Below are positions 1 to 11,290 of a stretch of 11,290 nucleotides of DNA, piece by piece. The notes beneath the pieces are model-generated. The model saw only the letters and a list, made by a program, of their open reading frames with translations. It was not told the origin of the DNA and searched no databases. The translations under genes were made by a program, and so were the position numbers. The DNA is taken from positions 1-11,290 of the forward strand of contig JAGUYV010000083.1 of the NCBI GenBank assembly GCA_020061125.1. Reading direction: 5' to 3'. Source of the DNA: a bacterium. Its GTDB lineage: Bacteria; UBP15; UBA6099; DSWB01. How positions within the stretch are numbered: the stretch's first letter is position 1; the number at the start of each line of letters is the position of its first letter.

Positions 1-2
1 CC

Positions 3-1637
3 ATGCAGCCGCCGCGCACCTTCCGCGAGGCTGTGCAGGCGTCATGGACCGTGAAAAACGCCGTGGAAATCGCGCACCCCATCAACCTGCACTGCTTCGG
101 CCGCATGGACCAGATCTTTCTTCCATACTACGAAAACGACCTGGCCGAGGGCCGCATCACACGGGACGACGCCCGCGACCTCCTCGAAGAAATGCTCCTC
201 AAGGCCATGTCCCAGAACATCCGGCCCGAGTCCAACATCTTGAGCAATTTCTATCACCGCTACCTCGGCTCCACCCCCATCACCATAGGCGGCGTGAAGC
301 CCGACGGAACCGACGGCACCAACGAAGTCACCTACCTGTTTCTGGAGGCGGCGCGCGATTCCAAGGCCGTGACCAATGTGTCCCTGCGCGTGCACAAGGA
401 CGCGCCCGAGGAACTGCTTATGGCCGTGGCCGATGTGCTGCACAGCGGGTGCTCGAACCTGTCCCTGTTCAACGACGATGTGAATGTGGAAGCCATGCGC
501 CGCAGAGGGTTTTCCGAGGAGGATTCGCGCAATTACGCGGTCATGGGCTGCGTGGAGATGGAGTGCCCGGGCAAGACCGGCAGCATGAGCGCCAACGCGA
601 TCCTGTTGTGCCGCCTTCTGGACATGACGCTCCGCAACGGGGATTCGCAGACCCTCATGGGCCGCATCCGCAATGTGGGCCTCAAAACCGGGGAGCCGTC
701 GGATTTCAAAACCTTCGAACAGCTCCTGGACGCGTTTCTGGCGCAGGCGCGCCGCCAGGTCGAGATCGTGGCAAAAGCCTCGAACCTGCGCGATCAGCTC
801 TATGCGGACACCATGCCCGCGCCGTGCATCTCCGCGTTCATGGACGGATGCCTCGAATCCCGCAAAGATGTGACCCGCGGAGGCGCGCGCTACGATCTCA
901 CCGGCGTGTCCTTCATCAACAGCATCGCGAACCTGGTGGATTCCCTGCATGTCATGAAAAAGCTGGTGTACGAGCAGCAGGCGTTCACCCTGGATGAGCT
1001 GCTCGCCGCCATAGACAGCAACTACGAGGGTCACGAGCACATTCTTGAGAAAATAAAGGCGGTGGAAGGCAAGTGGGGCAACGGGGATCCCGAAGTGGAC
1101 GCCCTGGCCCGGCGCGTGACCACGGAGCTGTTCCGGGAAACCTACAAATACAAATCGCCCAAGGGCGCGCCGTTCGCTCCCTATGTGATCAGCATGATCA
1201 CGCACACGATAGACGGCCGCGTGAGCATCGCCACGCCGGACGGGCGCCGCGCGGCCATGCCCTACGCCGCGTCGTGCAATCCGTACAATGTGGAAAGCAA
1301 CGGTGTGACCGGGGCCATGCGCTCGGTGGCCGCGCTGGATTTCCGGGACATGCTCGGCGCGGCCGTGAACATGAAATTCCACCCCACGGCCATCGGGCGC
1401 GAGCCGGACGCCCGGCGCAAATGGGCCACGCTCATCCGCACCTATTTTGCGCTGGGCGGCGCACAGTTGCAGCCCACCGTGGTGTCCGCGGACATGATGC
1501 GCGCGGCCCAGCAGAACCCTGACGAATACCGGGACCTCATCGTCAAGGTCGGCGGCTACAGCGCCTATTTCACCGAACTCGGCATCGAGATCCAGAACGA
1601 AATTATCGCCCGAACCGAGCACCACCTGTCCGGTTAA
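3..1637 (+). CDS. Glycyl radical enzyme (pyruvate formate-lyase superfamily, CxE type), 5' end outside window
   Basis: This is the C-terminal 544 residues of a glycyl radical enzyme, a family that uses a Gly radical and a Cys thiyl radical for C-C, C-O, C-N or C-S bond chemistry under anoxia. The catalytic Cys is C183 in a GCVE context (the CxE signature, E185), followed by PGKT. The glycyl loop is at 515-523, KVGGYSAYF, with G518 the expected radical site. Its first residue is Lys where the family usually has Arg. The GRMDQ..LPYY segment near residue 33 and the PDGRR motif near 417 are also typical. Full-length members run about 780-850 residues with the Cys near 430-490, so roughly 250-300 residues lie upstream, and the ATG at position 3 is probably internal. 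It leads an operon with the two genes downstream (47 nt gap). The required radical-SAM activase is not visible and may lie upstream. CxE enzymes include dehydratases, lyases and arylacetate decarboxylases; I cannot assign the substrate. Superfamily is secure, function is not. Confidence 0.93.
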   Translation: MQPPRTFREAVQASWTVKNAVEIAHPINLHCFGRMDQIFLPYYENDLAEGRITRDDARDLLEEMLLKAMSQNIRPESNILSNFYHRYLGSTPITIGGVKPDGTDGTNEVTYLFLEAARDSKAVTNVSLRVHKDAPEELLMAVADVLHSGCSNLSLFNDDVNVEAMRRRGFSEEDSRNYAVMGCVEMECPGKTGSMSANAILLCRLLDMTLRNGDSQTLMGRIRNVGLKTGEPSDFKTFEQLLDAFLAQARRQVEIVAKASNLRDQLYADTMPAPCISAFMDGCLESRKDVTRGGARYDLTGVSFINSIANLVDSLHVMKKLVYEQQAFTLDELLAAIDSNYEGHEHILEKIKAVEGKWGNGDPEVDALARRVTTELFRETYKYKSPKGAPFAPYVISMITHTIDGRVSIATPDGRRAAMPYAASCNPYNVESNGVTGAMRSVAALDFRDMLGAAVNMKFHPTAIGREPDARRKWATLIRTYFALGGAQLQPTVVSADMMRAAQQNPDEYRDLIVKVGGYSAYFTELGIEIQNEIIARTEHHLSG

Positions 1638-1675
1638 CCGGGCAGTCAAACCACTAATACGATTAATCAACAAAA

Positions 1676-1682
1676 GGGAGGG
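1676..1682 (+). promoter_or_regulatory. Strong Shine-Dalgarno that decides the start of the ADC-like gene
   Basis: GGGAGGG lies just upstream of two adjacent in-frame ATG codons at 1685 and 1688. Counting from GGAGG (1677-1681), the first ATG is only 3 nt away and the second is 6 nt away. The second spacing is more usual, so 1688 is preferred. Confidence 0.65.
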
Positions 1683-1687
1683 TTATG

Positions 1688-2458
1688 ATGGGTTTCGTCA
1701 AAACGCAACAGGAGATTGATCATTACTTCAGCCTTGCGGTGCGCAAGTTCCCGGACACGGACATGCTGGGCATGCTGTACCAGACCGACCCGGAGGCGAT
1801 CAAGCGCCTGCTTCCGCCGCCCCTGGAGCCTGCGGCCGAACCCTGGGCGCTGATCTACATCTGCCACTTCAAGGACACCAACCTGGGGCCGGGCTACCGC
1901 GAATCCGCGCTGTTCATCCGCTGCCAGTACAAGGGCGAGGTTGGCAATTACTGCCTGGGAATGCCGCTTGACGGCAACGACGACCGCATCTTCAACGGCC
2001 GCGAAATCTATGGTTTCCCCAAAAAGACCGCATCCATCACGCTCAAGCGCGAGGGCAATGTGGCCGAGGGCTGGGTCGAGCGGCGCGGCATCAGGTTCGC
2101 TCATGTCAAGGCGCAGCTCATGACCAAAATGGATCAGCCGCCTCTGAAAACCGGCCCGAGTTTTTTGTTCAAGTTCCTGCCCAAGGCGGACCTCACCCCG
2201 GGGTTCGCGGGCAAGGTCGAGCTAGTGCGCCAGCGCACGGAGATCGAGTACAAATGCTTCGAGATGGGGAGCGGAACCGTGGAGTTCCAGGATTCGCCCT
2301 TCGACCCGTGGAGCGAGGTGCCGTGCAAGAGCGTGATCGGGTGCTACTACTTCACCGGCGACACCACCATGCAGCCCGGCGATGTTGTGGGCGAGGCCGA
2401 TCCCGATGTGTTCCTGCCCTATTCCTTTTCCCGAACCGACTGGGGGTATGAGAAATGA
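1688..2458 (+). CDS. Acetoacetate decarboxylase-like protein (ADC fold)
   Basis: This 256-residue protein belongs to the acetoacetate decarboxylase superfamily (members about 245-260 aa). The clearest evidence is the motif GREIYGFPKK. Its first Lys (K112 from the 1688 start) aligns with the Schiff-base Lys115 of clostridial acetoacetate decarboxylase, and the next Lys with Lys116, which lowers its pKa. The acidic stretch before it (GYRESALFIR..YKGEVG) fits the ADC barrel. The conserved lysine pair supports a real decarboxylase or another Schiff-base reaction, but several ADC-fold enzymes are aldolase/dehydratases, so the substrate is open. No signal peptide or membrane segment is seen, so it should be cytosolic. 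The gene sits 50 nt after the glycyl radical enzyme, and its stop overlaps the start of the acyl-CoA dehydrogenase as ATGA, so all three are very likely co-transcribed. An ATG at 1685 is the alternative start. Confidence 0.9.
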   Translation: MGFVKTQQEIDHYFSLAVRKFPDTDMLGMLYQTDPEAIKRLLPPPLEPAAEPWALIYICHFKDTNLGPGYRESALFIRCQYKGEVGNYCLGMPLDGNDDRIFNGREIYGFPKKTASITLKREGNVAEGWVERRGIRFAHVKAQLMTKMDQPPLKTGPSFLFKFLPKADLTPGFAGKVELVRQRTEIEYKCFEMGSGTVEFQDSPFDPWSEVPCKSVIGCYYFTGDTTMQPGDVVGEADPDVFLPYSFSRTDWGYEK

Positions 2459-3654
2459 TTGATTTCAAGCCCACCGAAGAGCAGACCGAACTGCAGAAGA
2501 TGGCGCGCAAGTTCGCCAAGGAAGTGATCCGCCCCGCGGAGATGGCCATTGACAAAATGCCGGACCCGGACGCCGCATACCAGAGTCCGGAGTTCCGCGA
2601 CACGCTGGCGCAGGCCTATGAACTCGGGTTCCACAAGATGGGCATCAACGAGCAGCACGGGGGCCTGGGCCTGGACCCGTTGAGCACGGCCATGGTGTGG
2701 GAGGAGCTGGCCGTGGGCGGCGTGGGCATCCCGGCCACGCTGCTGGCCGGTTCCGTCGCGCCCGCGTTCTTGAGCGTGCTCGCGCAGGGCAAAAAGGATC
2801 TCATCGAAAAATATGTGGTTCCTTATTGCGAGGACACAAAGGCGGACAACATTTCCGCGTGGGGCAGTTCCGAGGGCAACATCGGTTCGGACGGCAGCAA
2901 TTATTACGACACCAAGGTGCGCCACGAGACATCCGCGAAAAAGGTGGACGGCGGTTACGAGATTACCGGCGCCAAGAGCAGTTTCGTGTCCAACGGCAGC
3001 ATCGCCAACCTGTTCCTGGTGTTTGCGAATGTGGAGCCGGAAAAGGGCATCTGCGGGTCGGGCGTGTTCCTTGTGCCCCTTCAGGATGGCGTGCAGCGGG
3101 GCAAGTCCATGGACAAGCTCGGCATGCGCGCGCTCAACCAGGGCGAGGTGTTCTTCGACGCGGCGCACATTCCCGAGGACAACATGCTCATGCCGCCGAG
3201 CGACAACTACCCGTTCATTCACAACGCCATCAAGACCGTGGGCAACCTGGGCGTGGGCTATCTGGCCGTGGGCCTCATGCGCGCGGCGTTCGAGGAAGCG
3301 CTGCAGTATTCCAAGGAGCGCGTGCAGTTCGGCAAACCTATCAAGGAACACCAGGCCGTGGGCTTCCGCCTGTTCGAGTGCTACCAGGCCATTGAGGCCG
3401 CCCGCGCACTGTTGTGGAAAGCCGCGTGGACCCTCGCCAACAAGTTCATGGGCGACCTCAAGCTGTCCGCGGCCGCGCGCGTGTTCGCCACCAACCAGGC
3501 CATGAAGCACACGGTCGAGATGGTGCAGATTCTGGGCGGCTACGGCGTGTCCAAGGAATACAACATGGAAAAATACATGCGGGACGCCAAGCTGCTGCAG
3601 ATCATGGACGCCACCAACGAAATCATGACCCTCAAGGGCATTAAGTTGCTGTAA
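2455..3654 (+). CDS. Acyl-CoA dehydrogenase family flavoprotein with Asp at the usual catalytic Glu position
   Basis: This complete 399-residue protein has the acyl-CoA dehydrogenase layout: an all-alpha N-domain, a beta middle domain (AWGSSEGNIGSD near 136-147; GYEITGAKSSFVSNG near 166-180) and a C-terminal helical domain. The C-domain has VQFGKPIKEHQA near 290-300 and LGGYGVSKEYNMEKYMRDAK near 362-381, which are FAD and CoA binding signatures. These enzymes alpha,beta-dehydrogenate acyl-CoA thioesters and pass electrons to electron-transfer flavoprotein. The usual YEGTNEI segment reads MDATNEI here, so the catalytic-base position holds Asp385. I see no compensating Glu at the helix-G site used by isovaleryl-CoA dehydrogenases. 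The start overlaps the upstream stop (ATGA), with GGGGG 8 nt upstream. It converges with the DUF488 gene, leaving only 8 bp between stops and no visible terminator. Family is certain; substrate unknown. Confidence 0.95.
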   Translation: MIDFKPTEEQTELQKMARKFAKEVIRPAEMAIDKMPDPDAAYQSPEFRDTLAQAYELGFHKMGINEQHGGLGLDPLSTAMVWEELAVGGVGIPATLLAGSVAPAFLSVLAQGKKDLIEKYVVPYCEDTKADNISAWGSSEGNIGSDGSNYYDTKVRHETSAKKVDGGYEITGAKSSFVSNGSIANLFLVFANVEPEKGICGSGVFLVPLQDGVQRGKSMDKLGMRALNQGEVFFDAAHIPEDNMLMPPSDNYPFIHNAIKTVGNLGVGYLAVGLMRAAFEEALQYSKERVQFGKPIKEHQAVGFRLFECYQAIEAARALLWKAAWTLANKFMGDLKLSAAARVFATNQAMKHTVEMVQILGGYGVSKEYNMEKYMRDAKLLQIMDATNEIMTLKGIKLL

Positions 3655-3662
3655 GGAAAGAA

Positions 3663-4223
3663 TCAGAACAGTTCGAGCTGCGCGCCGGGGGGCGCTCCTG
3701 GCCCCGTGCGTCCCCCGGCCGTTGGCTTGATATCCTCGTGCGCAACCACGGACCCGTCGCCGCGAATGTGCCGCACCTCGAAACCGCGTGCGATCAGCCC
3801 CGGCGCAATCAGCAGCGCGCGGTGGCATTTGGCCGGATCTTCCTCGCTGCACATCACGGCCGTGGCCTGGCCCCGCGCCAGGTCCGCCAGCCGGTCCAGC
3901 CCCGTCACGAATTTGGGTGATGCGCCAAGCTTTTCATAGTCCACGCCCCCGGACGCGAGCGCATACGCCGTGTCCGCGGGCTTGCCGCCGATCATGTTTC
4001 CCATGTACTTGTAATACATGAAATATTTGACCAGCGCGGGTTCAAGTTCGCCGTAATTGAAATGCGGGGCGATGCGCGAGTAGGGAGCGCTGCGCGCGTC
4101 CGCCACCATCTTGACGCCGTATTTTTTCAGCAGCGCCACGAACGCGGGCAGCCTGTGCCTGCTGTGGCCGATGGTGTACGCCACAGGCGCATCGGGCTGG
4201 TTGCTGCTGCCGGGAGAAGTCAT
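3663..4223 (-). CDS. DUF488 family protein
   Basis: This 186-residue protein matches the DUF488 pattern in order: TIGHS at 17-21, the DARSAPYSR block at 42-50 (usually DVRS.P.SR), FNYGEL near 55-60, IGGKP near 78-82, and MCSEEDPAKCHR at 124-135 with Cys125, Cys133 and His134. The biochemical role of DUF488 is not established. The last five residues, QLELF, resemble the QL(S/D)LF peptide that proteins use to bind the bacterial beta sliding clamp, which would suggest a DNA-related role; this is inference. The chosen ATG (4223-4221) overlaps the galT stop as ATGA, so the gene is the distal member of a galT operon. The reading frame stays open further upstream, but that extension runs inside galT in another frame and is not real. 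The C-terminal Pro/Gly-rich stretch before QLELF is probably flexible. Confidence 0.88.
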   Translation of the reverse strand: MTSPGSSNQPDAPVAYTIGHSRHRLPAFVALLKKYGVKMVADARSAPYSRIAPHFNYGELEPALVKYFMYYKYMGNMIGGKPADTAYALASGGVDYEKLGASPKFVTGLDRLADLARGQATAVMCSEEDPAKCHRALLIAPGLIARGFEVRHIRGDGSVVAHEDIKPTAGGRTGPGAPPGAQLELF

Positions 4224-5239
4224 TTTTCGGGCGGGGGCACGGCGCGCAGGAATTCCGCGGTTTCCTCGGGCCTGGCCGTGGAGATATAAATGCCGCTGGA
4301 CAGCTCGAACCCCACAGACGCGGTCACGCGCGGGATGATCTGCGCGTACCAGTGGTATTTTTCGCGGTAGCGCGTGTTGGTGGGCGACGCCTGGATGAGA
4401 TAATTGTAGTCCGGATCTCCCAGCGAGGAGTACATGCGCCAGAGCATGTCCCGCATGATCTCGGCCAGCTCGCGGCATTCGTTGTTGGTGATTTCCCCGA
4501 ACGAGCAGCAGTGGCGCTTGGGCACGATCCAGGTCTCGAACGGGGACTGGGACGCGAACGGCTGGAACACCACGAAGCGCCGGGTGTTCAGCACCACGCG
4601 CTCCTTGACCTGCAGGGTGCGCTCGACCATGTCGCAGGTGATGCACTTGTTATGAATCTGGTAATACTCCTTGGCCATGTTGAGCCGGTGCTGGATACGC
4701 GTGGGGATGATGGGCGTGCCCAGGACCTGGGAGTGCGGATGTTCGAGGGATGCGCCTGCCTTGCGGCCGTAATTGCGGAAAATATTGATGAGCAGGATGT
4801 GCTCGTTTTTTTCGAGCTGGCGGTATCGTTCCCGATAGATGAAGAACAGGCGCTCCACATCGGCCAGGGGCATGGTGGCGATGGTGAGATCGTGGCGCGG
4901 GTGATCAATGATCACATCGTGAACGCCGTAGCCCGCCACGGCATTGAAGAAATTAACCTCGTTGAACCAGGTGGCCTCGCCGCGCGGGTCCAGGGCGGGG
5001 TACTTGTTGGGAATCACGCGCACCTGCCAGCCGGGCGCGTTGGCCTCGGTGTCCTCGCGGTCGGCCAGGCTCTCGGGCGGGGTCATGCTCTCGTTGCCCG
5101 GGCAGAACGGGCAACTCGCCTTGTGCTCGGGAATGGGCGGCTTTTCCTCGTGCGTGTGGAAGTCCTCGGGCCGGCTCGCGCGCTCGGACGCGATGATCAC
5201 CCACTCCCCGGTTATCCTGTTCTGCCGCAGTTCGGACAT
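4220..5239 (-). CDS. galT: Galactose-1-phosphate uridylyltransferase family (GalT)
   Basis: This complete 339-residue protein has the two-domain GalT architecture of the HIT superfamily. Visible motifs are RQNRITGEWVIIASERA..RP at the N-terminus, the zinc pair CPFC (C43, C46), and the catalytic EHPHSQ at 166-171. H169 aligns with the nucleophilic second His of the HPHGQ motif of E. coli GalT. The C-terminal half has YHWYAQIIPR near 295-304 and GFELSSGIYI near 310-319. GalT exchanges UMP between UDP-glucose and galactose-1-phosphate in the Leloir pathway. Close relatives act as ADP-glucose phosphorylases or other hexose-1-phosphate nucleotidyltransferases. No galK, galE or other sugar gene is present, so the exact substrate is uncertain. 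It is the first gene of a two-gene unit with DUF488, with a promoter about 50 nt upstream. No clear Shine-Dalgarno precedes the ATG. Confidence 0.88.
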   Translation of the reverse strand: MSELRQNRITGEWVIIASERASRPEDFHTHEEKPPIPEHKASCPFCPGNESMTPPESLADREDTEANAPGWQVRVIPNKYPALDPRGEATWFNEVNFFNAVAGYGVHDVIIDHPRHDLTIATMPLADVERLFFIYRERYRQLEKNEHILLINIFRNYGRKAGASLEHPHSQVLGTPIIPTRIQHRLNMAKEYYQIHNKCITCDMVERTLQVKERVVLNTRRFVVFQPFASQSPFETWIVPKRHCCSFGEITNNECRELAEIMRDMLWRMYSSLGDPDYNYLIQASPTNTRYREKYHWYAQIIPRVTASVGFELSSGIYISTARPEETAEFLRAVPPPEK

Positions 5240-5289
5240 AGTCGCTTATTCGATAAAACCCGATTGTTCCCGTCTTCAATATTTGAACA

Positions 5290-5318
5290 ATAATAATGAT
5301 GTGCGCATGTCCAGTCAA
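5290..5318 (-). promoter_or_regulatory. Sigma70-like promoter for galT-DUF488
   Basis: On the minus strand, TTGACT (5318-5313) and TATTAT (5295-5290) are separated by exactly 17 nt. Each hexamer differs from consensus at one or two positions. The predicted start of transcription is near 5283, giving a leader of about 44 nt before the galT ATG. Confidence 0.6.
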
Positions 5319-5463
5319 TAAGAGTCGTGCGGGGCGGTTGTGCCAGTGCGCGGTTTCAAGGCGCCTACGAACAGCCAGCCAGCTTTTCAAAAAAAATAAT
5401 AATTTGATAGAAATTCTTCTTAAATATCAGAATTTGCCGGTGCTGTATGTTTCAATATACGGC

Positions 5464-5492
5464 TTGATTTTTTCAATAACTTTTTATATATT
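5464..5492 (+). promoter_or_regulatory. Sigma70-like promoter for hppA
   Basis: TTGATT (5464-5469) and TATATT (5487-5492) are separated by 17 nt. They lie inside the only AT-rich stretch of the window (about 5385-5535), whose A/T runs upstream of the -35 could act as an UP element. The predicted start is near 5499, leaving a leader of about 170 nt before hppA. Confidence 0.55.
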
Positions 5493-5546
5493 CTGCATGT
5501 TTGTGAAAGATTGCACTTTTATTTGCATGTCATTTTTCCGAATCCC

Positions 5547-5657
5547 GGCCCGTGCGCAACCCGCACGCGGCCTTCGAGATAAACCGCAATCCCTCATCGG
5601 TTTTGCGGGCAGAGGACGCGGGAAAACCCTGAATCCCGCGCATCCTTAACGACAAGG
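5547..5657 (+). promoter_or_regulatory. Structured 5' leader of hppA, no recognised riboswitch class
   Basis: The leader holds three hairpins. The first pairs 5547-5556 with 5562-5572 (10 bp, one bulged C, loop CAACC). The second has two mutually exclusive forms: AAACCG 5581-5586 with CGGTTT 5598-5603, or CCGCAA 5584-5589 with TTGCGG 5603-5608. The third pairs CGCGGGA 5617-5623 with TCCCGCG 5634-5640. A weak CCTT/AAGG pairing (5644-5647 with 5654-5657) could cover the edge of the ribosome binding site. The structures are direct sequence observations; a regulatory role is inference, and high GC content makes chance hairpins common. The rest of the 5240-5672 gap holds only the two promoters. 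Confidence 0.35.
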
Positions 5658-5672
5658 GGGGAAAACCTGCAC

Positions 5673-7895
5673 ATGGACGTATCACAGTTGAGAACCATCA
5701 GCATTTATGCGTTCCCCGTCTTCGGCATCGCGGCCCTGCTTTTCGCCTTCATGAAGGCGAGCTGGGTCAAGGCGCAGCCCGAGGGCGACGCGAACATGGC
5801 GACCGTTAGCAAGTATATCAATGAAGGCGCCATGGCGTTCCTGAAAAGAGAATACAAGGCAATCGCAATATTCGGCATTATCGTGGCCGTGGCCCTGGTG
5901 TTCCTGGGCCAGCAGGCGCATCCCAAAACGCCGTTCGTGTTTGCGGCATTTCTTTATGGCGCGATTTCATCCGCAACCGCCGGGTGGATCGGAATGGGCA
6001 TCGCCACAAAGGCCAATGTGCGCGCGGCGCAGGCGGCCCGCACCGGCCTGTCCAAGGCCCTGGATGTCGCGTTCAGCGGCGGCACGGTCATGGGCATGTG
6101 CGTGGTGGGCCTGGGCGTGCTCGGCCTGGGCGTGCTGTTCCTCATTGCGGAACTGGGCAACCCCGGCATGCTCGGCAAACTGGTGGACGGCTTCGTGGTT
6201 GATCCCATGCCCACCATCAGCGGCTTCGGCCTGGGCGCCAGCTCCGTGGCGCTGTTCGCCCGTGTGGGCGGCGGCATCTACACCAAGGCAGCGGATGTGG
6301 GCGCGGACCTCGTGGGCAAAGTCGAGGCCGGCATTCCCGAAGACGACCCGCGCAACCCCGCGGTCATCGCCGACCTGGTCGGCGACAATGTTGGCGATGT
6401 TGCCGGCATGGGCGCGGACCTGTTCGAGTCCTATGTCGGATCCATCATCGCCGCCATGGTCCTTGGCCTGGGCGTGGTAGATCACCCCTATCGCGGCATC
6501 ATGATCGGCCCCATCCTCGCGGCCGTTGGTATCGTCGCTTCCATCATCGGCACCTTCTTCGTCAAGACCAAAGAGGGCGAGAACCCGCAGAAAGCCCTCA
6601 ACCTGGGTTCCATCTATGTGTCCGGTATACTTATGCTCATCGGCACCTTCGCGGCCATCAAGCTGGTCATGCCCCCGACCTTCTCGTTCGCGGGCGTTGA
6701 CAAGATCTTCACCTGGTACGGTTGCGCCATCGCCACGGTCAGCGGCCTCATCGCCGGCGTGTCCATCGGCATGATCACCGAGTTCTACACGGCCGAGAGC
6801 AAGGGGCCGGCCCAGGCCATCGCCAAGCAGTCCGTGACCGGCGCGGCCACCAACATCATCGCCGGCCTGGGCACGGGCATGAAATCCGTGGCCTGGCCCA
6901 TCGTGTGCCTGTCCATCGCAATTCTCGTGGCCTACACCTTCTGCGGTCTGCTGGGCATCGCCCTGGCCGGCCTGGGCATGTTGAGCACCACCGGCATCAT
7001 CCTGGCCGTGGACGCTTACGGCCCCATCGCGGACAACAGCGGCGGCATCGCCGAGATGTGCCTGGGCGAGAAAGAGCCGGAAGTCCGCAAGCGCACCGAC
7101 AAACTCGATGCCGTGGGCAACACCACCGCGGCCATCGGCAAGGGCTTCGCCATCGGTTCCGCGGCCCTCACCGCTCTGGCCCTGTTCGCCGCGTTCGCGC
7201 AGGTTGTGGACCGCGAACTCGGCAGCAGCATCAAGCTGTCCATTGACATCCTTAGCCCCGCCGTGGTCGCCGGCCTGCTCATCGGCGCCATGATGCCCTT
7301 CCTGTTCGCGGCCATGACCATGAAGGCCGTGGGCGACGCCGCGTTCGACATGATCGAGGAAGTGCGCCGCCAGTTCAAGTCCATCCCCGAACTCGCGGCC
7401 GTGCTCAAGATCTTCAAGCGCGAGCACGATGGCGAAAAGATTTCCGACGAGGAAAAAGAAGCCGCGTTCCGCGCGGCCGAAGGCAAGCCCGAGTACGGCA
7501 AGTGCGTGGAGATCTCCACGGGCGCGGCCATCAAGCGCATGATCGTTCCCGGCGTCATGGCCGTGGTCGTTCCCCTGGCCGTGGGCATCATCGGCAAGTT
7601 CGTGGATCCGAGCCAGCCCGCCGCCATGCTGGGCGGCCTGCTCGCGGGCGTCACCTCCAGCGGCGTGATGATGGCCATCTTCATGGCCAACACAGGCGGC
7701 GCGTGGGACAACGCCAAGAAGTTCATCGAAGCCGGCGGCGGCAACCTCGGCGGCAAAGGCTCCGATGCGCACAAAGCGGCAGTGGTTGGCGACACCGTCG
7801 GCGACCCGTTCAAAGACACCTCCGGCCCGGCTCTGAACATTCTCATCAAGCTCATGAGCCTCGTGTCCCTGGTGTTCGCTCCGTTCCTGTTCTGA
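5673..7895 (+). CDS. hppA: Membrane-bound ion-pumping pyrophosphatase, K+-dependent, probably Na+-transporting
   Basis: This 740-residue integral membrane protein (family about 660-770 aa, about 16 helices) hydrolyses pyrophosphate to pump H+ and/or Na+ across the cytoplasmic membrane. Substrate and Mg-binding motifs are intact: [11 protein letters not shown] at 208-218, [17 protein letters not shown] at 237-253 (D238, D242), and [17 protein letters not shown] near the C-terminus. The segment [11 protein letters not shown] has Ala486 and Gly489 at the two positions that distinguish K+-dependent from K+-independent enzymes (the latter have Lys and Thr). Glu252 in DLFES lies at the membrane-helix-6 site typical of Na+-pumping and dual Na+/H+ enzymes; plant-type H+ pumps carry the Glu about one turn later. 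Ion preference is therefore predicted, not proven. The start is preceded by AGGGGGG (5655-5661), a rather long 11 nt away. It is monocistronic: own promoter upstream, terminator downstream. Confidence 0.97.
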
Positions 7896-7933
7896 TTCAC
7901 GCAGGCGCATCGAGCGGTTAACAAAGAAATACG

Positions 7934-7970
7934 GCCCGGACCGCCCCTCAAAGGCAGTCCGGGCTTTTCT
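7934..7970 (+). terminator. Intrinsic terminator of hppA
   Basis: A perfect 8 bp stem GCCCGGAC (7934-7941) / GTCCGGGC (7957-7964) is followed immediately by TTTTCT. It lies 38 nt after the hppA stop. A further GCC/GGC pairing extends the inner part of the hairpin. Confidence 0.9.
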
Positions 7971-8038
7971 ATTGTTTGACACGGCGTTTCCTGCCGCGTT
8001 TTTTGCTTTTTTCGCGTGTGCGCCCGCAGCCGCCTGAC

Positions 8039-8044
8039 TATAAT
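8039..8044 (+). promoter_or_regulatory. Possible -10 element (TATAAT) for the M20 peptidase gene
   Basis: A perfect TATAAT lies 3 nt before the first candidate ATG (8047) and 39 nt before the second (8083). No good -35 hexamer is found at 15-19 nt spacing. A TG dinucleotide upstream is one base too far to make an extended -10. If this box is used, transcription would start near 8051, past the first ATG. Confidence 0.3.
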
Positions 8045-8082
8045 AAATGCCTGACATCTCCGGGAAGGGTTCCTCACGATTC

Positions 8083-9444
8083 ATGCCGGACACTCACGAA
8101 TTCTCCGCATCGGACCGAAAGCGCATCTACCGCGAAACCCTGGATCATCTCAAAAATCTAATCCGCATAGACACAACCAACCCGCCGGGCAACGAGATCG
8201 CGGCGTGCGAGTATGTGCGCACGGTATTGGCCGCGGATGGCGTTGAGAGCGAAATTCTGGAATCCGCGCCCGGCCGCGGCAACATCATCGCCCGCCTGCG
8301 CGGCGACGGCAGTAAAAGGCCCCTGCTTCTTGGCGCGCATCTCGATGTGGTGCCCGCCATGGCCGAAAATTGGAGCGTGCCCCCGTTCGACGCCGTGGAA
8401 AAGGACGGCTTCCTCTGGGGCCGCGGCGCCATTGACTGCAAGCATCAGGTCGCGTTCATGCTTCAAACCTTTCTGGAAATCAAGCGCCGCGCCCTGCCCC
8501 TCAAGCGCGACATCATCCTGTGCTTCACCGCCGACGAGGAGGGCACCTGCACCTACGGCATGGGCTGGATGGTCAGAAACCACCTGGACAAAATCCAGTG
8601 CGAGTTCGCGCTCAACGAGGGCGGCGGCTACGCCATCCCCCTCGAAGGCGCAAACATCTATTTCTGCCAGAACGCGGAAAAGGGCGTGTTCTGGCTCAAG
8701 CTCATCACCGAGGCGGAGCCGGGCCACAGTTCCGTGCCGCACAAGAACAACCCCATCGCGCGCATGGGCGCGGCCCTTCACGAACTCAACAAGCCGCGCT
8801 CCATCCGCAGAACCGCCATCATGGAAACCCTGCTCGACGAACTGGCCGCCCTTCTGCCGTTCCCCAAAAACCAGGCCGTGCGCCAGTTGCTCAACCCTGT
8901 GTTGAGCGATGTCGTGCTCACCGCCATCAAGTCCGAACAGCCCCAGATCGCCGATGTTATTTCGTCCCTATTACGCAACACAACATCCCCCACGCAGGTG
9001 AACGCCGGGTACAAGGAAAATGTGATTCCCGAGCGGTGCGAAGCCATCATAGACTGCCGCATCCTGCCCGGAATGACCGCCGAAAAATTCACGAAAAAGC
9101 TGATGCGCCAGGTGGCCGTGGACCGCTGCGAGCCGCTCGACGCGCCCCAGCCCAACCCGTCGGAAAGCCCCATAGACACCGAGATGTACCATGTCATCCG
9201 CCGGGTCATCACGCGCCGCGACCCCGGGTCAGTGGTCACGCCGTTCCTGTTCTTCGGCGGCACGGACAACGGGTTCCTGCGCGACAAGGGCATCACCGCC
9301 TATGGGTTCTGTCCCATGAAAAGCAAGGTGCACCCCGGCGAATATCTGAATACCGCGCACGGCGTGGACGAACGCATCCCCCTGGACGCCATCGAGTACG
9401 GCGTCACCGTGTATTTCGACATCGTGGCCGAACTGTGCTGCTGA
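8083..9444 (+). CDS. M20 family zinc metallopeptidase / amidohydrolase (carboxypeptidase- or deacylase-like)
   Basis: This 453-residue cytosolic enzyme has the complete M20 metal site: H86 and D88 in GAHLDVVPA, D118 in WGRGAIDCK, E152 (general base) and E153 in ADEEGT, E179 in LNEGGG, and H426 in AHGVDE. The dimerisation (lid) domain starts near PGHSSVPHKNNP, at about residue 208. The LNEGGG form and the long insert around 230-310 resemble the carboxypeptidase S / aminoacylase group more than ArgE or DapE, but the substrate is not predictable; it hydrolyses some peptide or N-acyl bond. I prefer the ATG at 8083 to the one at 8047. The 12 intervening codons include GGG, TCA and CGA, unlike the body of the gene, and GGAAGGG at 8063-8069 reads like a leader, although its 13 nt spacing is poor. 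It is a single gene between the hppA terminator and the repeat block. Confidence 0.9.
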   Translation: MPDTHEFSASDRKRIYRETLDHLKNLIRIDTTNPPGNEIAACEYVRTVLAADGVESEILESAPGRGNIIARLRGDGSKRPLLLGAHLDVVPAMAENWSVPPFDAVEKDGFLWGRGAIDCKHQVAFMLQTFLEIKRRALPLKRDIILCFTADEEGTCTYGMGWMVRNHLDKIQCEFALNEGGGYAIPLEGANIYFCQNAEKGVFWLKLITEAEPGHSSVPHKNNPIARMGAALHELNKPRSIRRTAIMETLLDELAALLPFPKNQAVRQLLNPVLSDVVLTAIKSEQPQIADVISSLLRNTTSPTQVNAGYKENVIPERCEAIIDCRILPGMTAEKFTKKLMRQVAVDRCEPLDAPQPNPSESPIDTEMYHVIRRVITRRDPGSVVTPFLFFGGTDNGFLRDKGITAYGFCPMKSKVHPGEYLNTAHGVDERIPLDAIEYGVTVYFDIVAELCC

Positions 9445-9483
9445 TGCGTTTCGGCAAGCAGTAACTCCAATATATCCAATGTA

Positions 9484-9830
9484 AAAGGATTGACGCAGAG
9501 AGCGCGGAGATGCGCAGAGAACGCAGAGGGAAAGGCTCTATTTGCGTGGAATTTCATGCCTGTGTAGGGCGGCGTCGCCGAAAGCCGCCGCCGCGGAGCA
9601 CAACATATACGCCACAGGCGAAAAGACAATCATTACCACAGAGGCCACAGAGGAAAAGCAAAAGAATTTATCCACGAAGAGCACGAATAATGCACGAAGA
9701 ATGACAAGGGCGCGGCCTGTGGCCACGCAAAACAAAACCTCCGTGACTCCGTGAAGCCTTCGTGTTCTCCATGAAAAACCGCCGTTTCCTCCGCGCCTCC
9801 GCAGGGTCCTTTCAAAGGACTGACGCAGAG
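9484..9830. repeat. Intergenic block of short periodic repeats in opposed orientations
   Basis: Most of the gene-free stretch 9445-9914 is this block. The left part has CGCAGAG-type units starting at 9494, 9503 (CGCGGAG), 9513 and 9522. The middle has CACAGAG at 9637 and 9646, then CACGAA at 9673, 9682 and 9693, so most steps are 9-11 nt. The right part carries the same family reversed: tandem CTCCGTGA at 9739-9746 and 9747-9754, CTTCGTG at 9758-9764, and CCTCCGCGCCTCCGC at 9788-9802. The block is bounded by a 17 bp direct repeat, AAAGGA(T/C)TGACGCAGAG, at 9484-9500 and 9814-9830 (one mismatch). The right copy also forms GTCCTTT-C-AAAGGAC. A GGCGGCG/CGCCGCC hairpin lies at 9568-9592. No credible gene is seen here; short open frames run through the repeats and look spurious. 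Confidence 0.75.
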
Positions 9831-9850
9831 GCAACAAACCCGGACGACGG

Positions 9851-9882
9851 AAAACGAAAACGGGGCGCGACTCGCGCCCCGT
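9851..9882 (-). terminator. Intrinsic terminator of the dapF-dapL operon
   Basis: An 11 bp perfect inverted repeat (9860-9870 with 9872-9882, core GGGGCGCG/CGCGCCCC) has only one central unpaired base by sequence. On the minus strand it is followed by TTTTCGTTTT. It lies about 33 nt after the dapL stop. On the plus strand no T-run follows, so it appears to serve the minus-strand transcript. Confidence 0.88.
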
Positions 9883-9914
9883 GTGCATATTCGCAATTAT
9901 TGCAGTCTTGCATT

Positions 9915-11084
9915 TCAGAATTTCAATTTGCCGATGCGCTCCATGGCTTCTTCGAGCCGTTTGCTGTTGAGCGTGAACGAGATGCGGAAGAAGCGCTTGA
10001 CCTCGTCCTCGGCCCCGAACGCGGTGCCGGGCGTCACGGCCACATGCGCCTCTTCGAGCACGCGCGCCACGAACTGCACGCAGTCCATGCCCTCGGGCAC
10101 AGGCGCCCACACATAGAATGTGCCCTTGGGTTTCTCCAGCTTCCAGCCCATGGAATTGAGGCTGTCCACCACGAGGTTGCGGCGTTCGGTGAATGTCTGG
10201 AGCATCTCCTGCATGTCGTCGGACACTTCGTCCAGAGCCGTGATGCCCGCGTGCTGGATGGCCTGGAACAGGCCCGAGTCCACATTGGTTTTCACCTGCG
10301 CCAGCCCGGCCAGGATGTCGGCGTTGCCCACGGCGAACCCGCAGCGCCAGCCCGTCATGCAGTACGATTTGGACAGGGAGTGGAACTCTATGGCCACATC
10401 TTTGGCGCCCTCGACTTCGAGGATGCTGGGCGCCTTGTATCCGTCGTAGGTGATTTCCGAATACGCGTTGTCCGAGCAGAGCACGATGTCGTGCTCCCTG
10501 GCGAAAGCCACGGCGCGCTTGTAGAAATCGAGGCTGGCCGTGGCTGCCGTGGGATTGTTCGGATAGTTCACGAACATGATGCGCGCCTTGTCCAGGGCTT
10601 CGGCGGGAATGGCGTCGAAGTCGGGCAGAAAATTGTTGCGCGACAGCAGCGGCATCACGAGCGGCGTGCCTTCGGCCAGAATGGTGCCCGCGTTGTACAC
10701 GGGGTAGCCCGGGGAGGGAACCAGGGAGATGTCGCCGGCCTGCACGAACGCCGGGTAGATGTGCGCGATGCCTTCCTTGGAGCCGATCAGGGACACGACT
10801 TCCTTTTTGGGATCCAGAGTCACGCCGAAGCGCTTGTGGTACCAGCGGGCCACGGCTTCCCTGAATATGAGCATGCCCTCGTAGGAGGGATACTGGTGGT
10901 TGGCGGGGTTGGCGGCCTCTCGGGCCAGGGTTTCGATGATCTTTTTCGGGGTGGGGATGTCGGGGTCGCCCACGGCCAGGCTGATCACATCCGCGCCTTT
11001 CTCGATGAGCGCGGCCTTTTTGCGGTCGAGTTCCGCGAACGGGTACTCGGGAATTTTCTTGAGCCTCTTGGCGTATTTAATGAT
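9915..11084 (-). CDS. dapL: LL-diaminopimelate aminotransferase-like class I/II PLP aminotransferase, apparent ATC start
   Basis: This 389-residue fold-type I aminotransferase has VGDPDIPTP at 38-46, PSPGYPVY near 123-130, YPNNPT at 174-179, SDNAYSE at 204-210 (D205 contacts the PLP pyridine N), SLSKSYCMTGWR at 236-247 with the Schiff-base Lys239, and R367 in FFRISF for the substrate carboxylate. The N-terminus IKYAKRLKKIPEYPFAELDRKK is characteristic of LL-diaminopimelate aminotransferases, which convert tetrahydrodipicolinate to LL-diaminopimelate in one step. dapF lies directly upstream, the next enzyme of that pathway, which strongly supports the call. A broader alanine/aspartate aminotransferase is the main alternative. 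No ATG, GTG or TTG lies at the expected start. AAGGAGG (11099-11093) is followed 8 nt later by ATC at 11084-11082, exactly where homologues have Met. The nearest in-frame ATG upstream (11207) lies inside dapF and would add 41 unlikely residues. Confidence 0.88.
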   Translation of the reverse strand: MIKYAKRLKKIPEYPFAELDRKKAALIEKGADVISLAVGDPDIPTPKKIIETLAREAANPANHQYPSYEGMLIFREAVARWYHKRFGVTLDPKKEVVSLIGSKEGIAHIYPAFVQAGDISLVPSPGYPVYNAGTILAEGTPLVMPLLSRNNFLPDFDAIPAEALDKARIMFVNYPNNPTAATASLDFYKRAVAFAREHDIVLCSDNAYSEITYDGYKAPSILEVEGAKDVAIEFHSLSKSYCMTGWRCGFAVGNADILAGLAQVKTNVDSGLFQAIQHAGITALDEVSDDMQEMLQTFTERRNLVVDSLNSMGWKLEKPKGTFYVWAPVPEGMDCVQFVARVLEEAHVAVTPGTAFGAEDEVKRFFRISFTLNSKRLEEAMERIGKLKF

Positions 11085-11092
11085 AACAATCG

Positions 11093-11099
11093 CCTCCTT
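11093..11099 (-). promoter_or_regulatory. Strong Shine-Dalgarno of dapL
   Basis: The minus strand reads AAGGAGG here, the best ribosome binding site in the window. It places initiation about 8 nt downstream, at the ATC codon 11084-11082. It sits 35 nt after the dapF stop codon and argues against initiation at the distant ATG at 11207. Confidence 0.85.
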
Positions 11100-11134
11100 G
11101 GACGGGCGCGCGGCCCTTTGCGTTCTTGTTTGAA

Positions 11135-11290
11135 TTATCCGGCCCAGACGCCGGTGTACGCGGTCTGCGCGGGGCCGGTCATGAGAATGGGGCCTTCTTC
11201 GATCCATTGGATATTCAGGTCTCCGCCAGGCAGGTGCACGGTGGCTTTGCGGTCCGCGCGTCCGGTGGCGTACGCTGCGGCCAGGGTGGC
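11135..11290 (-). CDS. dapF: Diaminopimelate epimerase, C-terminal 51 residues (rest beyond window)
   Basis: Reading the minus strand from the window edge, the frame encodes 51 residues ending at TAA (11137-11135). The segment TVHLPGGDLNIQW followed by GPILMTGPAQTAYTG is the standard C-terminal end of DapF (typically V.LPGGDLEIEW...MTGPAE.VF.G). DapF interconverts LL- and meso-diaminopimelate for lysine and peptidoglycan synthesis; its two catalytic Cys lie outside the visible part. It is upstream of dapL on the same strand with a short gap, so the pair forms a diaminopimelate operon, although the genes run in reverse of pathway order. The identification rests on a short piece but on the most conserved tail motif. 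Confidence 0.88.
   Translation of the reverse strand, partial: ATLAAAYATGRADRKATVHLPGGDLNIQWIEEGPILMTGPAQTAYTGVWAG

Follow-up and report, generated by a model that had tools for sequence, protein, structure and literature searches.

Gene organization of the locus

The stretch of DNA analyzed here (the window, 11,290 nucleotides) is an entire contig (JAGUYV010000083.1 of assembly GCA_020061125.1, referred to as C274) of a bacterial genome that is divided over 513 contigs. It carries the latter half of a cluster of genes around a glycyl radical enzyme (GRE), a type of enzyme that is sensitive to oxygen, with three genes on one strand. The C-terminal 544 residues of the GRE are encoded at positions 1..1637 of the plus strand (open reading frame 3-1637; PF02901 and PF01228). 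An acetoacetate decarboxylase (ADC)-fold protein follows at 1685..2458 on the plus strand (PF06314, E 1.4e-52), and an acyl-CoA dehydrogenase (ACAD)-like flavoprotein at 2455..3654, also plus (PF00441, PF02770 and PF02771). The ADC and ACAD genes overlap by 4 nt, whereas the GRE and ADC genes are separated by 47 or 50 nt depending on the ADC start chosen. The ADC gene opens with ATGATGGGT and is preceded by AGGGAGGG. The second ATG, at 1688, is the likelier start because most ADC relatives begin with MGF, which would make the gap 50 nt. Open reading frames and Pfam matches agree with the initial annotation, which had described these genes as a one-strand operon with this spacing encoding a Cys-x-Glu (CxE) GRE, a Schiff-base-fold partner and a flavoenzyme.

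The ATG at position 3 encodes an internal Met of the GRE and is not the gene start; the gene is cut by the start of the contig, and full-length relatives have about 850-880 amino acids. The missing N-terminal part was found on another contig of the same genome (C5, 3,037 bases). In the numbering of the relative L045, C5 covers the equivalents of residues 20-255 and the window part begins at that of residue 329; about 220 nt are absent from both contigs. On its minus strand, C5 further contains the first part of an SDR gene and an HpnA-like reductase gene; its plus strand has a TetR regulator gene followed by the beginning of the GRE gene, which runs off the end. No overlapping bases were found between C5 and C274; we infer that the two contigs adjoin because relatives show that gene order.

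Active site of the glycyl radical enzyme

The window GRE shows the domains that define the GRE superfamily, with scores of 350.9 bits for PF02901 (E 2e-104) and 73.3 bits for PF01228 (E 2.7e-20). Its CxE loop reads GCVEM, with Cys at 549-551 and Glu at 555-557. The C-terminal glycyl loop, which was read from the alignment for the GRE rows, is KVGGYS in the window enzyme, with the radical Gly at 1554-1556 and a Lys where the consensus has Arg. The conserved His of the NLHC loop is encoded at 90-92, the catalytic-network His of strand β1 (GHV) is encoded on C5 and kept in relatives, and the C-terminal RTEH stretch is kept as well. Both sequence marks of the CxE GRE eliminases, the Cys-x-Glu loop and the β1 His, are present, and together with the glycyl loop they define a predicted active site of the eliminase type. 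In HypD, His160 and Glu436 are essential, and equivalents of both occur in the GRE of this genome, the His on C5 and the Glu in the window; the Glu of CxE is regarded as the base in most GRE eliminases, with HypD as the exception (PMC7077986).

The known CxE eliminases (HypD, glycerol/propanediol dehydratase, CutC, IslA and HpsG/HpfG) share with this system the PFL-like and Gly_radical domains, the Cys-x-Glu motif, a radical-SAM activase and the β1 His (His164 in glycerol dehydratase, His160 in HypD). The window GRE differs from them in having only ca. 30% identity to the other GREs fetched and a KVGGYS loop in place of RVxGY. A one-residue insertion is found in its family (INSIAN versus V-GLAN), the substrate-contact residues of glycerol dehydratase and HypD are mostly not kept, and the neighboring genes are different.

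A separate family with two active-site variants

In a tree of 68 rows, the 47 GREs of this family formed one clade on a long branch with a support of 100. Identity to L009, a full-length relative from a Syntrophomonadaceae metagenome-assembled genome, was at least 47% inside this clade and at most 32% for the other fetched GREs, a gap that describes the sample gathered through our homology searches. L009 scored far under every NCBIfam GRE equivalog cut-off. The best models were TIGR01774 and HypD (NF043068, 442.7 bits with a cut-off of 1100). The choline trimethylamine-lyase model for CutC (TIGR04394) gave 379 bits (cut-off 1050) and the sulfopropanediol models HpsG/HpfG gave 416 and 395 bits (cut-off 1000).

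The shared domains, the CxE loop and the two best models could place the enzyme in one of the known eliminase families, i.e. HypD, CutC, glycerol/diol dehydratase, or the sulfopropanediol or isethionate enzymes. At the family level this is contradicted by the scores and by the tree, in which HypD proteins that exceed their own cut-off (L025, L026, L027) fall outside the 47-row clade. Furthermore, Asp278 and Asp339 of HypD are not kept, Asn and Gly occurring in their place, and such membership is hardly conceivable. An arylacetate-type decarboxylase is also very improbable: the hydroxyphenylacetate and indoleacetate decarboxylase families are both among the NCBIfam matches, but with 253 and 296 bits they stay far under their cut-offs (1150 and 1100) and under all CxE eliminase models. 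Tight clustering with a known enzyme, which according to the initial annotation would have spoken against a new system, was not seen, since the GRE fits no curated family and lies in a separate clade. Literature searches on Asgard archaea with GREs and on candidate phyla, restricted to open-access papers, returned nothing on this family, and no open-access paper was found that held all three terms, in line with the earlier statement that no characterized pathway pairs these enzymes. As judged from its sequence, the GRE belongs to a family for which no description was found in the open-access literature.

The family comprises two groups that differ in the residue held to be the general base in most GRE eliminases, a split that amounts to a natural experiment. 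Clade A, to which the ADC-linked enzymes belong, has Cys-x-Glu (GCVE) in 20 of 20 rows, whereas its sister, clade B, has Cys-x-Asp in 27 tree rows and in one further fragment outside the tree. Because the GREs of G041 and G102 diverge at the root of the 47-row clade, at a fork with a support of 81, the rows called clade A possibly form a grade and not a true clade. The clade-B loop reads GCVD or GCTD and occurs in L053 (13745-16312, on contig C338 of the host genome), L055, L068, L077, L107, L117 and others. Several clade-B GREs adjoin GntR regulators and activases.

Conservation of the gene cluster

The gene order found in the host recurs in relatives. Among genomes of the same order, TetR-GRE-ADC-ACAD runs divergently from the SDR and HpnA-like genes in G002, G003 and G004 and, as far as its contig reaches, in G006. 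G001 shows TetR-GRE-ADC-ACAD, and the G005 cluster lies on more than one contig, the second of which holds ADC-ACAD-activase. In G041 and G102, which belong to a different phylum of seven genomes, the arrangement is TetR-GRE-HpnA-like-SDR-ADC-ACAD. In G427, one contig carries TetR-GRE, and the GRE end followed by activase, HpnA-like, SDR, ADC and ACAD genes lies on another. The Syntrophomonadaceae genome (L009) carries the set with the activase inside the operon and with TauE and GPH-type transporters. Asgard archaea have the GRE and the ADC-fold protein with a GlcD-like FAD oxidase instead of the ACAD (L008, L010, L103, L119, L120), joined in L008 by an HdrD/GlcF-like Fe-S protein; in a Helarchaeal genome (L100) the GRE is on one contig and the genes for ADC, oxidase and Fe-S protein are on another. 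TetR, HpnA-like reductase and SDR genes are recurring partners.

The ADC gene was on the same stretch as the GRE for 15 of the 20 clade-A enzymes versus none of the 27 in clade B (Fisher p 2e-8, counted by hand and with shared descent ignored). Five clade-A GREs lack an adjoining ADC; contig ends truncate two of these, and in two others the ADC is elsewhere in the genome. With a single window and a cut contig, three unrelated metabolic genes could have come together by chance. This linkage and the occurrence of ADC-ACAD with the GRE family in the same order in several bacterial groups contradict that explanation, which is scarcely credible. The grouping is not due to chance, because ADC-ACAD follows this GRE family in relatives of the same order, in G041, G102 and G427, and in the Syntrophomonadaceae genome. 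The possibility, raised initially, that the neighbors would not be conserved is not borne out. As the sequence shows, the window carries the 3' half of a conserved cluster around a GRE that both bacteria and Asgard archaea combine with an ADC-fold protein.

The initial annotation had noted that no activase or CoA ligase is visible and that they may lie upstream. An activase is indeed part of the system: it lies inside the operon in G427 and L009 and after the ACAD gene in G005, and a host candidate was found on contig C351. CoA ligase, CoA transferase and microcompartment genes were not seen to recur in the clusters of the relatives.

Several further genes were noted beside these clusters. A TauE/SafE gene directly follows the ACAD gene in L009 (14715-15488, PF01925), and by sequence reading another lies shortly after it in L159 (9607-10338), an unrelated genome. 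The UroD-type methyltransferase of L010 (11642-13147) has an N-terminal domain matching PF25653, a domain type that in L009 forms a separate short open reading frame (16957-17658), with a weak C-glycoside deglycosidase beta match (PF19906) just below the cut-off. Beside the FAD oxidase, the Lokiarchaeal cluster contains an additional GRE that belongs to a different family (32% identity, GCVEPSG; L010 4116-6668, L008 2912-5464).

The ADC-fold protein and the flavoprotein

Residue numbers of the ADC-fold protein were mapped onto the sequence of Clostridium acetobutylicum ADC. Lys113 and Lys114 (2021-2026) correspond to Lys115 and Lys116 of that enzyme and Glu73 (from 1901) to Glu76; the Schiff-base Lys pair and Glu76 are present in every aligned ADC covering those sites. 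Arg29 and Glu61, which have roles in the active site of acetoacetate decarboxylase, are replaced in all relatives covering them, by Thr, Ala, Ser or Met and by Ile, Ser, Ala, Met or Leu, respectively. The 17 ADCs from genomes with a clade-A GRE form a single clade (support 96/96). An AlphaFold2 model (pLDDT 66, pTM 0.71) matched ADC, MppR and aldolase-dehydratase structures in Foldseek, with 3bgt at E 1e-16 and 6eej, 5upb and 4jm3 also matched. The closest solved structures, 3bgt and 3c8w, are annotated as acetoacetate decarboxylases and share 28% identity. The protein thus resembles C. acetobutylicum ADC and the ADC-like superfamily (MppR, Sbi_00515, Swit_4259) in fold, Lys115-Lys116 and Glu76, but differs in the replaced Arg29 and Glu61, an identity of 17-28%, and the separate clade of the GRE-linked ADCs.

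In the flavoprotein all three ACAD domains (PF02771 N-terminal, PF02770 middle, PF00441 C-terminal) were over the cut-off, as in butyryl-CoA dehydrogenase and other acyl-CoA dehydrogenases. In contrast to these enzymes, Asp385 (3607-3609) occupies the position of the catalytic Glu in an alignment with 5lnx and 1buc, the window protein reading IMDAT versus IYEGT. This Asp was found in all 15 ACAD relatives aligned, more distant ones having IEDG, and no NCBIfam equivalog cut-off was reached (best 203 versus 640 bits). A literature search on nitroalkane oxidase returned no usable statement on Asp as the base, and no analogy with that enzyme is drawn. An ADC gene directly upstream of an Asp-type ACAD gene also occurs without a GRE in three further genomes (G046, G530 and G394; L160 8910-10795, L161 7813-9757, L162 8492-10520), near genes that appear to be of a lipid type by sequence reading.

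These residues bear on the chemistry suggested by the initial annotation, in which the GRE would make a β-keto acid or act on a C-C bond, the ADC-fold protein would decarboxylate the β-keto acid, and the ACAD would oxidize the resulting acyl-CoA. The annotated function of the nearest solved structures and the conserved Lys pair and Glu76 agree with such a scheme. The decarboxylation step is weakened because Arg29 and Glu61 are replaced throughout and because ADC-family enzymes also serve as enone isomerases (PMC11719350) and, among the structures matched, as aldolase-dehydratases. Acyl-CoA oxidation is uncertain because the catalytic Glu is Asp in all relatives aligned. No CoA ligase or transferase was seen to recur in the cluster, an AMP-ligase being found only beside one clade-B GRE (L051), and we consider this scheme unlikely.

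Proposed pathway

The gene content points to a predicted anaerobic degradation pathway. We tentatively favor a radical elimination on a hydroxylated substrate followed by Schiff-base isomerization or cleavage, with flavin and NAD enzymes adjusting the redox state, because the recurring neighbors are of kinds acting at hydroxyls, carbonyls or the adjacent carbon, the ADC-ACAD pair without a GRE is found near apparently lipid-type genes, and ADC-family enone isomerases exist. The radical-SAM activase would put the glycyl radical on the GRE, whose Cys thiyl radical would take a hydrogen from a hydroxyl-bearing carbon while the Glu of CxE deprotonates the hydroxyl. The ketyl radical could then lose the neighboring hydroxyl or another heteroatom group to give a ketone or aldehyde, which Lys113 of the ADC-fold enzyme would bind as a Schiff base. 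This enzyme would catalyze a double-bond shift or a hydration/retro-aldol reaction and not an acetoacetate-type decarboxylation. The ACAD-like flavoenzyme may insert or remove a double bond; in the Asgard variant the GlcD-like FAD oxidase and the GlcF/HdrD-like Fe-S protein would stand in its place and oxidize an alcohol. The HpnA-like and SDR enzymes would oxidize or reduce hydroxyls, and TetR would control the cluster. From the gene context, our guess for the substrate is a hydroxylated lipid, isoprenoid or cyclic polyol.

A related combination is known from the linoleate saturation pathway of Lactobacillus (CLA-HY/DH/DC/ER), in which the ADC-family enone isomerase CLA-DC works with an alcohol dehydrogenase (PMC11719350). 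The likeness, an ADC-family enzyme beside an alcohol dehydrogenase and a flavin enzyme, is only a functional analogy, and that pathway has no GRE.

Several findings weigh against the proposed elimination and Schiff-base route. Among the substrate-contact residues of glycerol dehydratase, His164 is kept in the GRE family, His281 is kept in most rows and Ser282 is Cys or Ser, but Asp447, Tyr339 and Tyr640 are not kept. The diol-contact pattern of glycerol/propanediol dehydratase is therefore not present, and a vicinal diol as substrate is just a guess. A structure model of the GRE based on six sequences (pLDDT 46) was too poor for reading the pocket and was not used. ADC-fold proteins are functionally diverse. 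Corrinoid proteins and UroD-type methyltransferases beside some clusters, in Asgard archaea (L008, L010, L011, L104) and in L009, would be compatible with a methylated substrate.

The TauE/SafE genes in L009 and L159 make a sulfonate a possible substrate as well. The GRE would then be a C-S lyase acting on, for example, a sulfonolipid, with export of sulfite by the transporter, and isethionate sulfite-lyase is indeed among the CxE GREs (PMC8473560). The sulfopropanediol GRE models, however, scored well below their cut-off, and no TauE gene was seen beside other clusters, although no systematic search was made. TauE-family transporters also carry other anions, and we give C-S cleavage a slim chance.

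A more far-reaching version of the elimination and Schiff-base route is speculative and, taken as a whole, rather doubtful. It holds that deoxygenation of a hydroxylated lipid, terpenoid or cyclitol by the GRE yields a carbonyl product that passes to a Schiff-base ADC-fold isomerase or lyase, a radical-then-iminium logic that would be common to uncultured bacteria and Asgard archaea, while the sister CxD clade, with its shortened general base, would catalyze a different reaction. GREs carry out difficult reactions under anaerobic conditions, and newly found families of them have often brought new pathways to light. The present family occurs in uncultured bacteria and Asgard archaea; its fixed gene partner limits the possible chemistry, and the partner enzymes offer concrete assays.

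Other features of the window and host genome

The host genome contains at least seven GRE-like sequences, including long forms of ca. 940-990 residues on contigs C387 (L060 7192-10158) and C467 (L061 8861-11692). Selenocysteine in these GRE paralogs was considered and rejected, as the single TGA reported in the matches is the terminal stop codon. The remainder of the window (3663-11207) is ordinary by Pfam, with DUF488, GalT-like, membrane pyrophosphatase, M20 peptidase and class I/II aminotransferase genes.

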